DNA from: Candidatus Parvarchaeota archaeon UBA446
Lineage (GTDB): Archaea > Nanobdellota > Nanobdellia > Parvarchaeales > Parvarchaeaceae
DNA: 26,606 nucleotides
NCBI GenBank assembly: GCA_002503215.1
Contig: DARG01000026.1
Span: 1-26,606, forward strand
Direction: 5' to 3'
The notes beneath the pieces were generated by a model. The model was not told the origin of the DNA and ran no database searches. It was given only the letters and a program-made list of their open reading frames with translations. The position numbers were made by a program, and so were the translations under genes. Every line of letters begins with the position of its first letter. Within the stretch, counting starts at the first letter, position 1. Below are positions 13,281 through 26,606 of this stretch, in pieces.

Positions 13281-13841
13281 ATGAAAGTAATAGTTTCCGG
13301 ACTTACAGCATCTGGCAAATCAAGTGTTTCTAAGGCTTTAGCAAAGGAATTTAATCTTGAGTATTTTTCAGCAAGTTCAAAGCTTAGAGAGATTCTACCA
13401 AAAAAAGATTTTGAAGTTTGGGAATCTAAAAAAGGTATAGAAGCAGTGAAATTTAGAATAAAAAATCCAATTTATGATAAGAAACTCGATAGAATTATGT
13501 TATCTCTTTTCAATAGAAGCTTCAATATGATATTGGACAGTTGGGTAGCTTCTTGGAAAGTAACTGATACAAACATTATTAAAATATATATAAAGGCTGA
13601 CGAAAAAATAAGGGCTGAGAGGGTTAGTAACAGAGATGGAATAACGTTTAAACAGGCACTTTCTTTTATGAGAATAAAAGATAAACTTACCGCTCAAATT
13701 TATAGCAATATCTATGGTATAGATGTTAAAAAAGATTTTAGACCTTTTAATCTTGTAATAGATTCCTCTTATTTGGATTTAAAAGAGGTTATTAAAATAT
13801 GTTCATATTTTATACTTAAATGTAAAAAGGCAAAGTTTTAA
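13281..13841 (+). CDS. cmk: Cytidylate kinase (archaeal type)
   Basis: A 186-residue P-loop kinase phosphorylating CMP/dCMP. The Walker A is GLTASGKSS (residues 7-15). The substrate segment 'MILDSWVASWKV' replaces the usual 'vleGRlaGw', and the archaeal lid/C-terminal pattern is present ('RVSNRDGITFKQAL', 'IYSNIYGID', 'FNLVIDSS'). It begins 2 nt after aglB and ends 23 nt before cbf5; cmk next to cbf5/truB is a recurrent archaeal arrangement. The RNA-processing neighbour suggests shared expression rather than a direct functional link. Confidence 0.85.
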   Translation: MKVIVSGLTASGKSSVSKALAKEFNLEYFSASSKLREILPKKDFEVWESKKGIEAVKFRIKNPIYDKKLDRIMLSLFNRSFNMILDSWVASWKVTDTNIIKIYIKADEKIRAERVSNRDGITFKQALSFMRIKDKLTAQIYSNIYGIDVKKDFRPFNLVIDSSYLDLKEVIKICSYFILKCKKAKF

Positions 13842-13864: not shown

Positions 13865-14875
13865 ATGAAACTGCCACTTGAAGGTTTGAAGCAGGATATC
13901 TTCTCAATAAGAGAAGAGGAAACTGATCTTAAATACGGCAGATTTCCTGAAAAAAGAAGCGTAGAAGAAAGGATAAATTATGGCTTTATTCTGCTTGATA
14001 AACCAGCAGGTATAAGGTCTAAGACGGCTGCGTATATAGCTAAGAAGTTAATGGCAGTACTTGGTGTAAAAAAGATAGGTTACTCAGGGACTTTAGAAGA
14101 TTGAAGAAATCCCAATGTAACAGGTCTTTTACCCTTAGCCATAAACAATGCTACAAAGGCACTGTCAGTCCTTCTTCTTGGCGGAAAGGAGTATATAGCT
14201 CTCATGCACCTGCATAAAGAAGTAGAAGAGCACTTACTCAGAGATACGTTCATAAAATTCACAGGCGAGATAACTCAGATGCCCCCAGTAAGATCGCATG
14301 TTAAGCGCCAGTATAGACAAAGAGAAGTGTATTATTCTGAAATAATAGAGATTTCTGGAAAAGATGTCCTCTTTAAGGTTGGAGTCGAATCTGGCACATA
14401 TATAAGAAAGCTTATACATGATATGGGTGAAAATCTCGGCGTAGGTGCACATATGGTAGAACTAAGAAGAACCAAAGTTTCTACTCTTTCAGAAAAAAAC
14501 AACTTAGTAACACTACAGGACCTAGAAGATGCTATACATATGTATGTAAATGAAAAGGATGTACGGTTACTTAATCAATGCATAGGCAATATAGAATCGG
14601 CAATAGATTTTATTCCAAGAATTTTTGTATCCGACACTACTGTAGATCCAGTATGCCATGGTTCTCCAGTGGCGATACCAGGTATAGTAAAACTGACGGA
14701 TTTTGATAAAGGCGAGCTTGTAGCTATAATGACTTTGAAAGGAGAAATTATAGCTCTCGGAAAATCCGTACTTTCTTCAGAGGATATAAAATCTATTAAA
14801 AGAGGAGTAGCTGTAAAAACAGACAGCGTTATAATGAATATTGGGACTTATCCAACGTATAAAAAGGTTAATTAA
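13865..14875 (+). CDS. cbf5: rRNA pseudouridine synthase Cbf5 (TruB family), interrupted by a 12-nt intron
   Basis: Cbf5 is the catalytic subunit of H/ACA ribonucleoproteins and isomerises uridine to pseudouridine in rRNA. The N-terminal part carries 'INYGFILLDKPAGIRS', the central part the catalytic motif, then 'GLLPLAINNATKAL', 'MPPVRSHVKR', 'ESGTYIRKLIHDMGENLG' and a C-terminal PUA domain (about 'PRIFVSDTTVDPVCHGSPVAIPG' onward). Read directly, the frame hits TGA at 14102-14104 inside the catalytic motif (SGTLED-stop-RNPNVTG). Removing 14097-14108 gives SGTLDPNVTG with the catalytic Asp, and a 332-residue protein of normal Cbf5 length. Both halves are in the same frame and otherwise intact. 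It follows cmk by 23 nt; tRNA-Pro follows 31 nt downstream. Alternatives are stop readthrough or pseudogene, both less convincing. Confidence 0.93.
14097..14108 (+). other. Predicted 12-nt bulge-helix-bulge intron in cbf5 pre-mRNA
   Basis: The removed sequence is AAGATTGAAGAA. The flanks fold into the canonical archaeal splicing motif: outer helix GGGA (14087-14090) with TCCC (14110-14113); central helix CTTT (14091-14094) with GAAG (14103-14106), i.e. four pairs including one G-U; a 3-nt bulge AGA (14095-14097) on the 5' side and AAA (14107-14109) on the 3' side. Cutting each bulge after its second base removes exactly these 12 nt and gives TTA-GAT-CCC (L-D-P). The remaining 5 nt (14098-14102) form a tiny loop with only one possible pair, so the inner helix is essentially absent. 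No splice product has been observed here. Confidence 0.85.
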
Positions 14876-17061: not shown

Positions 17062-17607
17062 GTGCCCTTCTATAATATGGGAAAAGATGAATATGCATAT
17101 GTTTTGGAATACATGCCTTTTGGGTTACCTGACTCAAAAGACAGAAAGGCATCGGCTATAGTTTTTACAGATTCTCTCAGTCTTCTTTTGGTTGCTCTTA
17201 AAAAAGATGTAAAGGTAGACCCTGGTTTGAAAGTATATATAGGAGAAAATAAAAGGGATGAAGTTCATCATATAATCCAACGTATAACTCCTGATAAATT
17301 AAGTGGTAATGGGTTGGCTTCACTAAATGATAGGATTGCAACTATAGTAAAAGAGAATGAAGAAAAATATATAGACATAATAAATAAACTTGGTTCTATA
17401 AATGTACGTCTGCATTCTTTAAATCTGCTTCCTGGAGTGGGTAAGAAAATCGTTCAAAAAATACTAGAAGAAAGAACAAAAGCTAAATTTAAATCATACG
17501 AAGATTTTAATGAAAGAGTAGGTTTTACATCCGATATCGCTAAGAGTATAGAAGACAGAATAATGGAAGAACTCAACGGTGAGGATAAATACAAGATATT
17601 TACTTAG
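17062..17607 (+). CDS. DUF655 protein with helix-hairpin-helix domain
   Basis: A 181-residue archaeal DUF655 protein, predicted to bind RNA or DNA. An N-terminal OB-like domain (about 1-75: 'EYAYVLEYMPFG', then 'YIGENKRDEVHHIIQRI') is followed by a helix-hairpin-helix region with 'LNLLPGVGKKIVQKILEER', a classic HhH. The frame can start at GTG 17062 or ATG 17077; I keep GTG because family members have 'EYAYVLDYLP' a short way in and 8 nt separates it from rpoF. The stop TAG (17605-17607) shares its last G with the first base of tRNA-Trp. Precise function unknown. Confidence 0.85.
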   Translation: MPFYNMGKDEYAYVLEYMPFGLPDSKDRKASAIVFTDSLSLLLVALKKDVKVDPGLKVYIGENKRDEVHHIIQRITPDKLSGNGLASLNDRIATIVKENEEKYIDIINKLGSINVRLHSLNLLPGVGKKIVQKILEERTKAKFKSYEDFNERVGFTSDIAKSIEDRIMEELNGEDKYKIFT

Positions 17608-17718
17608 GGGTTGTAGTCTAACCAGGCAGAATCAGCGGCTCCAGCTTGACTGGAAAAATGACGTTAAGAATGATTAAGAAGAAACCGCTTGATCCAGGTT
17701 CAAATCCTGGCAACCCCA
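17607..17718 (+). tRNA. tRNA-Trp (anticodon CCA), with intron
   Basis: Acceptor GGGGTTG (17607-17613) pairs with CAACCCC (17711-17717), discriminator A at 17718. T arm CCAGG/CCTGG with loop TTCAAAT. The anticodon stem AGCGG (17634-17638) pairs with CCGCT (17685-17689). The loop begins C-T-C-C-A-G, placing anticodon CCA at 17641-17643, after which a 39-nt insertion precedes base 38. The D stem is weak (C-A at 12-23). The first nucleotide is also the last base of the DUF655 stop codon, and the 3' end overlaps the opposite-strand membrane-protein gene by 19 nt. CCA tail not encoded. Confidence 0.93.
17645..17683 (+). other. Intron of tRNA-Trp, position 37/38, bulge-helix-bulge
   Basis: The 39-nt insertion lies after base 37 (G, 17644). 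The fold is a standard BHB: outer helix is the anticodon stem; central helix CTCC (17639-17642) with GAAG (17678-17681), three pairs plus one C-A mismatch; 5' bulge AGC, 3' bulge AAA (17682-17684); inner helix TTGA (17646-17649) with TTAA (17674-17677). Cleavage after the second base of each bulge excises 17645-17683. Position 37/38 is the usual archaeal tRNA-Trp intron site. No convincing C/D box guide is seen inside it. Confidence 0.85.
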
Positions 17719-25107: not shown

Positions 25108-26606
25108 ATTCCAGTTGATCCTGCTGGAGGTCACTGCTATTGGGATTCGAATGAGACATGCAAGTTCATCTGCCGGGTAACGGTAGATTGCGTACGGCTG
25201 AGGCAACACATAGATAACGTAACGTTAGGAAGAGGATATCCTCGGGAAACTGAGGTTAATACTCTATAGCAATAATATCTGAAACGATTTTATTGTTAAA
25301 GCTTATTTCTAATACCGAGATAATGTGCCTAACGATCGGTCTATGCCTGATTAGACTGTTGGTGAGGTAACGGCCCACCAAATCTAAGATCAGTAGGGGC
25401 CATGAGAGTGGTTTCCCCCAGAAGGGTACTGAGACAAGGACCCTAGCACTACGGTGTGCAGCAGTCCCGAAAACTCCACAATGCGCGCAAGCGTGATGAG
25501 GGAATCCCAAGTGTTCTTTCCGTTTCGGAAGGAACTTTTGCCACGTTTTGAAATGGCGTGGCGAATAAGGGCTGGGCAAGCGGGTGCCAGCAGCCGCGGT
25601 AATACCCGCGGCCCGAGTTGTGACCATTATTATTGAGTCTAAAGCGTTCGTAGCTGGTTTGGATAGTTTGTGCTTAAATCTTTTCGTTTAACGAAAAGGC
25701 ATGGTATAAATACTTCCAGACTAGAGGCCGGGAGGGGAGATGGGAACTTTTCGGGTAGGAGTAAAATCCTTTAATCCGAAAAAGACCACCAATAGCGAAG
25801 GCACATCTCCAGAACGGACCTGACGGTGAGGGACGAAGGCTAGGAGAACAAACCGGATCAGATACCCGGGTAGCCCTAGCAGTAAACGCTGCTTACTATA
25901 CGTTGCATTTTCTTGAGAAAATGCAGTGTGACAGCGAAGGCGTTAAGTAAGCCACTTGGGGAGTATAATCGCAAGGTCGAAACTTAAAGGAATTGGCGGG
26001 GGAGCACAAAAACGGGTGAAGTTTGCGGTTTAATTGGATTCAACTCCGGGAATCTTACCAGAAGCGACAGCAATATGAAGGCCAGTCTGAAGAACTTGCC
26101 AAATGCGCTGAAAGGTGTTGCATGGCCATCATCAGTTAGTATCTTGAGACGTCCCGTTAAGTCGGGTAACTAACAAGACCCTCTTCTATATTTGCTAACA
26201 TGCAATCCGTTGTGAATGAGCAAAATATAGAGACAGCTTTCGAAAGAAAGAGGAAGGTGAGGGCGACGGTAGGTCAGTACGACCCTAATCCTCTGGGCTA
26301 CACGCGAATTGCAATGGTAAAGGCAATAGGATGCCACTCCGAAAGGAGGAGCTAATCCCCGAATCTTTACCCTAGTTCGGATCGAGGTCTGTAACTCGGC
26401 CTCGTGAAGGCGGAATCCGTAGTAACCGCGTTTCAACAAAGCGCGGTGAATACTTTCCTGCTCCTTGCACACACTGCCCGTCAAACCAAACAAGTTGGAT
26501 TTAGATGAGATTGTCGTTATGCGATAACCGAATCTAGGTTCAGTGAGTAGGGTTAAGTCGCCACAAGGTAGCCGTATGGGAACATGCGGCTGGATCACCT
26601 CCTTTA
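25108..26606 (+). rRNA. rrs: 16S ribosomal RNA
   Basis: Full-length archaeal small-subunit rRNA of about 1,499 nt. Landmarks: 5' ATTCCAGTTGATCCTGCTGG at 25108, the 530-loop GTGCCAGCAGCCGCGGTAA near 25587, AAAGGAATTGGCGGGGGAGC near 25986, and the 3' end CTGGATCACCTCCTTTA carrying the anti-Shine-Dalgarno sequence. Helix 45 is present as stem GTATG/CATGC with loop GGAA, the KsgA target. The length is normal, so there is no rRNA intron. The window stops at the mature 3' end, so the linkage to 23S is unseen. Confidence 0.97.

Follow-up and report, generated by a model that had tools for sequence, protein, structure and literature searches.

The window analysed here is a whole 26,606-nt stretch of DNA, contig 27 of an archaeal genome (G000) of 841 kb in 41 contigs that is about 93% complete. 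Its cbf5 gene adjoins what we take, from its sequence, to be a cytidylate kinase gene (13281–13841), and a complete archaeal 16S rRNA gene (25108–26603) lies at the window end. The cbf5 frame starts at ATG 13865 (+) and reaches an in-frame TGA at 14102–14104 after 79 codons. Deletion of 14097–14108 restores SGTLDPNVTG, catalytic Asp included (...GYSGTLDPNVTGLLPL...), and the spliced Cbf5 would have 332 aa as counted from the coordinates. Thus, the interruption of the frame inside the GTLDP motif, the exact deletion that mends it and the end of the unspliced frame after 79 residues, all put forward in the initial annotation, were confirmed. Exon 1 closes on the G that begins the codon for the catalytic Asp, and exon 2 accounts for 254 aa from the Pro codon; Pfam matched TruB_N, TruB_C_2 and PUA on the piece starting at 14111. 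Since the insert begins and ends with A, deletion of 14098–14109 gives an identical mRNA, and of the two equivalent deletions 14097–14108 is preferred because the cutting rule for the bulge–helix–bulge (BHB) motif picks that register. The features are as follows:

13865–14096, + strand: cbf5 exon 1 (DKCLD and the start of TruB_N); open frame, with Pfam DKCLD on the 79-aa product
14087–14090, + strand: 5′ arm of the outer helix, GGGA, in exon 1; pairs with 14110–14113
14091–14094, + strand: 5′ arm of the central helix, CTTT, in exon 1; pairs with 14103–14106 (80 of 80 cells paired in the comparison below)
14095–14097, + strand: 5′ bulge (AGA), with the cut expected behind 14096 (layout as read from the sequence, cut rule from PMC2738675)
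14097–14108, + strand: predicted 12-nt intron, AAGATTGAAGAA; removal restores GTLDPNVTG, and a 12-nt insert is found in 19 of 30 family genomes
14098–14102, + strand: residual inner hairpin, with a possible A14098–U14102 pair and a variable 3-nt loop
14102–14104, + strand: in-frame TGA stop within the predicted intron; its T is invariant in 19 of 19 12-nt introns
14103–14106, + strand: 3′ arm of the central helix, GAAG, in the intron; helix pairing across 20 distinct sequences
14107–14109, + strand: 3′ bulge (AAA), with the cut expected behind 14108 (layout likewise as read)
14110–14113, + strand: 3′ arm of the outer helix, TCCC, in exon 2; pairs with 14087–14090
14109–14875, + strand: cbf5 exon 2 (rest of TruB_N, TruB_C_2, PUA by Pfam); low dN/dS in relatives

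The outer and central helices of the window motif form 8 out of 8 pairs, one of them a G–U pair in the central helix, and the Cbf5 protein would be restored if each bulge were cut behind its second base. The initial annotation called this a textbook BHB with practically no inner helix. Both helices and the bulges are indeed as it described them, but ‘textbook’ is an overstatement given that there is no real inner helix; its second remark holds, as at most one A–U pair could close the 3-nt loop. An inner helix beyond the 5′ bulge belongs to the strict BHB motif and is missing from relaxed forms; the 12-nt motif could have no more than this single pair there. In all 19 12-nt inserts the ends of the hairpin at 14098–14102 are invariant and its middle is variable. 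The minimum-energy fold (−5.7 kcal/mol) pairs CUUUA with UGAAG around a 6-nt loop, giving a bulge–helix–loop, and prefers A14095–U14102 over A14098–U14102; for this single sequence the energy is only modestly better than that of shuffled versions (11 out of 200 as good). Of the 52,972 sites on both strands of the window, 28 have a fully paired 12-nt motif arranged in this way; for the two protein-restoring registers together, this translates into a chance of about 1 in 1000. This figure is suggestive by itself, and it is the relatives that make the case for the predicted intron decisive.

The family is represented by 32 genomes, one per species, of which 30 have a cbf5 match and two (G027 and G028) gave none in the profile search. 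Close relatives in the scan bear the names ‘Candidatus Parvarchaeota archaeon’, ‘Nanoarchaeota archaeon’ and Candidatus Acidifodinimicrobium mancum, the last placed by NCBI in Acidifodinimicrobiaceae, Parvarchaeota. Among the 30 family genomes with cbf5, the insert is 12 nt long in 19, 16 nt long in two and absent from nine, and it always occupies one identical nucleotide; within the window's genus the 12-nt insert is found in 19 out of 27 genomes. The alignment of related DPANN cbf5 genes, proposed earlier as a check, has thus revealed present, longer and absent states. The 12-nt inserts share the pattern AA-NNN-TGAAGAA (G023 has TGAGGAA, and there a T–A pair of the central helix is replaced by C–G), with an invariant A before and T after the variable positions 3–5 in 19 of 19. 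The 16-nt inserts of G030 and G031 shift the frame, and their motif is complete, the inner helix having three base pairs (GTG-ATT-CAC). When three mismatches are allowed, the 27-nt motif has a single match, always in cbf5, in each of 19 of the 32 family genomes and no match in the other 13, so there are no dispersed copies of the 27-nt sequence.

The rest of the gene appears intact. Exon 2 has dN/dS of ~0.06 (L034/L035) and ~0.04 (L036/L038, dS 1.0) in the two usable pairs out of eight; one pair was too similar, and in the five comparisons with the window dS was saturated (1.8–3.0) with dN of 0.13–0.14. Judged by these rates, exon 2 is under purifying selection. Furthermore, G000 has no second TruB-type match, both profile matches being pieces of cbf5. 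These observations bear on the suspicion that the interruption is an assembly or sequencing error or marks a decaying pseudogene, which could be entertained on the grounds that the window comes from one metagenome-assembled genome. Yet neither the selected exon 2 nor the lack of a second copy fits such decay, the same-place 12-nt insert occurs in 19 species genomes, and in a set of 5.8 billion predicted proteins the identical 79-aa product represents 32 contigs. We regard this explanation as next to impossible. An assembly error of the 12 nt in particular is excluded in practice by the same-site inserts of relatives.

Same-site inserts extend beyond the family. In the named genome scan, 80 of 163 relatives were kept, corresponding to 30 family loci and 50 others, and in 16 of these 50 cbf5 carries an insert at that very nucleotide: two Woesearchaeota (18 nt), six Bathyarchaeota (19–34 nt) and eight Thermoproteota (27–38 nt). 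The woesearchaeal and bathyarchaeal intron loci are L133, L134, L138, L142, L147, L157, L158 and L160. A class survey of 207 genomes at least 80% complete, 199 of them with a TruB_N match, added eight genomes outside the family with inserts of 13, 15, 21, 21, 21, 22, 22 and 29 nt; they belong to four further families, each of which also has members with an unbroken profile match. All eight loci were read; survey genomes other than those read were judged by their profile tables, by which an in-frame stop-free insert would be missed. The 13-nt insert (L184) has no inner pair and is the near neighbour in length of the 12-nt form, the shortest among the loci read; in L183, exon 2 encodes NVYG in place of NVTG. 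Separately, TruB_N was found in frames of 824 and 829 aa (G101:C26:22696-23037 and G167:C7:36825-37163), far longer than Cbf5, which may represent a fusion or an intein.

Together, the 21 family introns, 10 from other DPANN, six from Bathyarchaeota and eight from Thermoproteota make up a set of 45, from which duplicates (L102-L129 and L166) were left out. They reduce to 20 distinct arm combinations, and the central helix is paired in 80 of 80 cells, with the 5′ arms CTTT, CCTT, CTCT, CACT and CCCT each matched by their 3′ partners and two-sided exchanges at two pairs (T–A/C–G/A–T and T–A/C–G). When the 3′ arms were re-dealt among the rows, a procedure that ignores relatedness, none of 20,000 deals reached 80/80. 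For DPANN alone, 40 of 40 cells are paired and one of 20,000 re-deals was as good; for the family alone, four distinct rows give 16 of 16 paired cells, and 5051 of 20,000 re-deals equalled this, which is not significant. The outer helix is paired in 69 of 80 cells and unpaired in 11, and since re-dealing left this unchanged, it provides no covariation support. Consistent with a constraint on the RNA, synonymous bases of the flanking codons that are used by the BHB motif are locked where the insert is present. All 21 family genes with the insert have G at the third position of the Gly codon, compared with 0 of 9 genes without it (Fisher 7e-8, ignoring relatedness). The Leu codon is TTA (21/21 vs 2/9), the Asp codon ends in T (21/21 vs 5/9) and the Pro codon ends in C or T (21/21 vs 2/9). 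Across all loci read, the Gly third base is G in 39 of 45 genes with and four of 67 without an insert, indicating that the codon lock is weaker outside the family.

If the TGA were read through or recoded, the insert would be translated and four extra residues would enter the Cbf5 catalytic loop. TGA is a common recoding target, and the 12-nt insert does preserve the frame. However, 14 of the 45 same-site inserts shift it, including the 16-nt ones of the same family, where simple readthrough could not mend cbf5. Moreover, the G022 insert contains TAA as well as TGA, TGA terminates four of the 23 window ORFs examined, and the DP of the loop would become E-x-x-R-N-P (G for R in G023), with the residue after E variable and Asp in only 10 of 19 genomes. 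Readthrough is thus highly improbable. Translational bypassing, in which the ribosome would hop over the 12 nt, deserves no more credit. Bypass sites are known from phage and yeast mitochondria, and a short stop-containing coding gap resembles them; a hop, however, requires matched take-off and landing codons, whereas here the codon before the stop varies freely and the same-site inserts range from 12 to 38 nt around a conserved BHB core.

In the other 31 of the 45 introns the frame is maintained, and each of the 31 has an in-frame stop. Among the 37 introns of the family and the named scan, which were gathered regardless of stops, the corresponding numbers are 27 and 27. Shuffling of the loop letters in nine lineages of our choosing, with a single sequence per lineage and some lineages not independent of others, gave a joint chance of 8e-5 for the stops. 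Without the three class-survey lineages the chance is ~3e-4, and ~6e-4 (obtained by division) if the window's lineage, noticed because of its stop, is left out as well. This hints at selection for a fail-safe, although in the 12-nt form the invariant T may also have a role in pairing.

As annotated, cbf5 is broken into two proteins. The 79-aa fragment has 14 hits, 12 of which reach the motif; the residue following GTLE is D in seven and V, N, H or Y in five. This variability implies that the 79-aa piece has no conserved catalytic Asp. Among the best 120 of 4098 database relatives of the spliced Cbf5, none that is uninterrupted exceeds 67% identity, the closer ones being split; such a database need not hold transcripts. 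One could imagine that pieces of 79 and about 248 aa are made separately and then assemble, given that databases predict two proteins with intact reading frames. But neither piece would have a conserved catalytic Asp, as the second starts after the motif, and the locked synonymous helix sites would be left unexplained, so we consider a split protein very unlikely.

To follow the insert through time, we built quick trees. In the RpoB tree of 30 family genomes, 28 of which have a known state (G001 and G003 gave no locus), insert presence needs two changes. The simplest reading is that the insert would have been present in the family ancestor and cleanly lost in an eight-genome clade (support 85) and in G029; such change counts cannot separate gain from loss, the deep forks are poorly resolved and the G028 branch is very long. 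On the Cbf5 tree of 112 rows, which carries a long-branch warning, insert presence needs 11 changes, at least seven of them by well-supported branches. A single ancient gain would then require about ten losses, and regains at the same nucleotide or transfers would be equally possible.

We identified in G000 one gene for the tRNA-splicing endonuclease EndA (177 aa from ATG, with Pfam N and C domains), the best solved relative of which is the M. jannaschii enzyme (1a79, alpha4). No second PF01974 match was present in G000 at E up to 10, a result of one profile on a ~93% complete genome, where a diverged second subunit could be missed; weak second EndA-like matches (E 0.009–0.19) occur in three of seven other genomes. 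Within this scope, G000 shows no sign of the broad-specificity heterotetrameric EndA, which is a correlate of the known cbf5 introns rather than a part of how the RNA motif is defined. In the available text of PMC6379350, the M. jannaschii alpha4 enzyme is listed as narrow in specificity, and efficient removal of relaxed motifs is ascribed only to heterotetrameric and epsilon enzymes. With at most one inner pair and a bulge–helix–loop fold, the 12-nt motif presses on the alpha4 specificity rule. An RtcB gene is present in G000. Elsewhere, the EndA catalytic domain of the congener G018 lies in two halves on two contigs (G018:C24:10488-10601 and G018:C5:28981-29124), which may be due to a contig break or a split gene, and the RtcB matches G014:C8:41327-44137 and G040:C56:18796-21552 are broken in two inside frames of 998 and 975 aa, as an intein may cause.

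In the source genome, seven tRNA introns were read, of 16, 18, 18, 25, 36, 39 and 49 nt, all of which, when placed at 37/38 as chosen among the listed readings, share the outer and central helix layout of the cbf5 intron. The 39-nt intron has three of four central pairs, and three of the seven have only one uninterrupted inner pair. One of them lies in the window (17607–17718) in a tRNA with anticodon CCA as read (Trp) and a 39-nt intron, which was found by Rfam and missed by ARAGORN; its end, GAAGAA/A (the slash marking the cut), resembles that of the cbf5 intron.

Overall, the 12 nt at 14097–14108 are very probably an archaeal BHB-type mRNA intron, predicted to be cut by EndA and likely rejoined by RtcB. 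The data support a BHB-type intron, which alone among the readings considered would account for all of them: a single nucleotide hosts alleles of 12, 16 and 0 nt within one family, some inserts of relatives shift the frame, the helix changes on both sides, neither unspliced piece keeps a conserved catalytic Asp, and exon 2 is intact and under selection. EndA would recognise the outer helix, the 3′ bulge and the central helix, together with an 8-nt loop in which the 5′ bulge lies, and would cut each bulge behind its second base, whereupon RtcB would seal the exons. Splicing, its enzyme and any gating of Cbf5 production, which the initial annotation proposed, are so far inferences. The predicted junction is ...GGGACTTTAG/ATCCCAATG..., with the 12 nt absent, and spliced Cbf5 should yield the peptide IGYSGTLDPNVTGLLPLAINNATK. 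Unspliced mRNA would give the 79-residue fragment, and neither piece would contain a conserved catalytic Asp. In these genomes, gene callers at present report cbf5 as a pair of erroneous proteins. A broader scenario is conceivable but rather doubtful: the cbf5 intron would be a single element shared across archaea, either an ancestral feature of the DPANN and Thermoproteota lineages that was lost many times, or regained at a splice site pre-formed by the catalytic motif (GGnA...TCC), here shrunk to near the 11-nt minimum of tRNA introns and kept as a fail-safe against reading unspliced message into the catalytic domain.

If the intron is real, it would indicate how small an RNA outside tRNA can suffice for the tRNA-splicing enzyme. 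Archaeal mRNA splicing would also reach beyond Crenarchaeota, to DPANN and Bathyarchaeota, always at a single fixed nucleotide, so that intron gain versus loss could be tested over very deep time. A 2020 paper, in its available text, names cbf5 as the only additional BHB intron so far reported (PMC7714728). Among the open-access papers listed, as judged by titles and abstract beginnings, there was no report of cbf5 or BHB introns in Bathyarchaeota, DPANN, Woesearchaeota, Parvarchaeota or Nanoarchaeota, and a term search of the main text of the Parvarchaeales papers examined found neither ‘intron’ nor ‘cbf5’.

The closest known system is the cbf5 intron of Desulfurococcales and Sulfolobales, which, according to Yokobori et al. 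2009 (PMC2738675), is 16–44 bp long and interrupts the codon of the catalytic residue; these authors report spliced cDNA for a number of species, partly as unpublished data. Watanabe et al. 2002 is cited there on the crenarchaeal intron. The statement of the initial annotation that such introns are known in some Crenarchaeota is therefore borne out. The likeness covers the gene, the codon of the catalytic residue, the BHB layout and the cuts between the second and third bulge bases, and the eight Thermoproteota insert loci read here sit at the window's identical nucleotide. By contrast, the window intron has 12 nt, at most one inner pair and a DPANN host, and its genome shows one alpha4-like EndA gene rather than the heterotetramer of crenarchaeal hosts. 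It is, on this comparison, a smaller form of the same predicted kind, in new lineages. With archaeal tRNA introns, which range from 11 to 175 nt in the same source (PMC2738675), it shares the expected enzyme pathway and the outer and central helix layout, and its 12 nt fall inside that range, but it lies in an mRNA and is shorter than all seven of its own genome. Among protein genes, its length would be matched only by unproven viral inserts. These are reportedly from a Sulfolobus rod-shaped virus. They are 12-bp introns proposed in archaeal virus protein genes (Peng et al., as cited in the available text of PMC2738675); they are only putative and the proteins may tolerate them, whereas the insert in the window disrupts the catalytic codon and brings in a stop. 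Finally, the introns of Stentor (15–16 nt in the available text of PMC9505925) are likewise extremely short and in protein genes, but they are spliceosomal and eukaryotic; at 12 nt, the window intron would be shorter than both these and the 16–44 bp cbf5 introns found in print.
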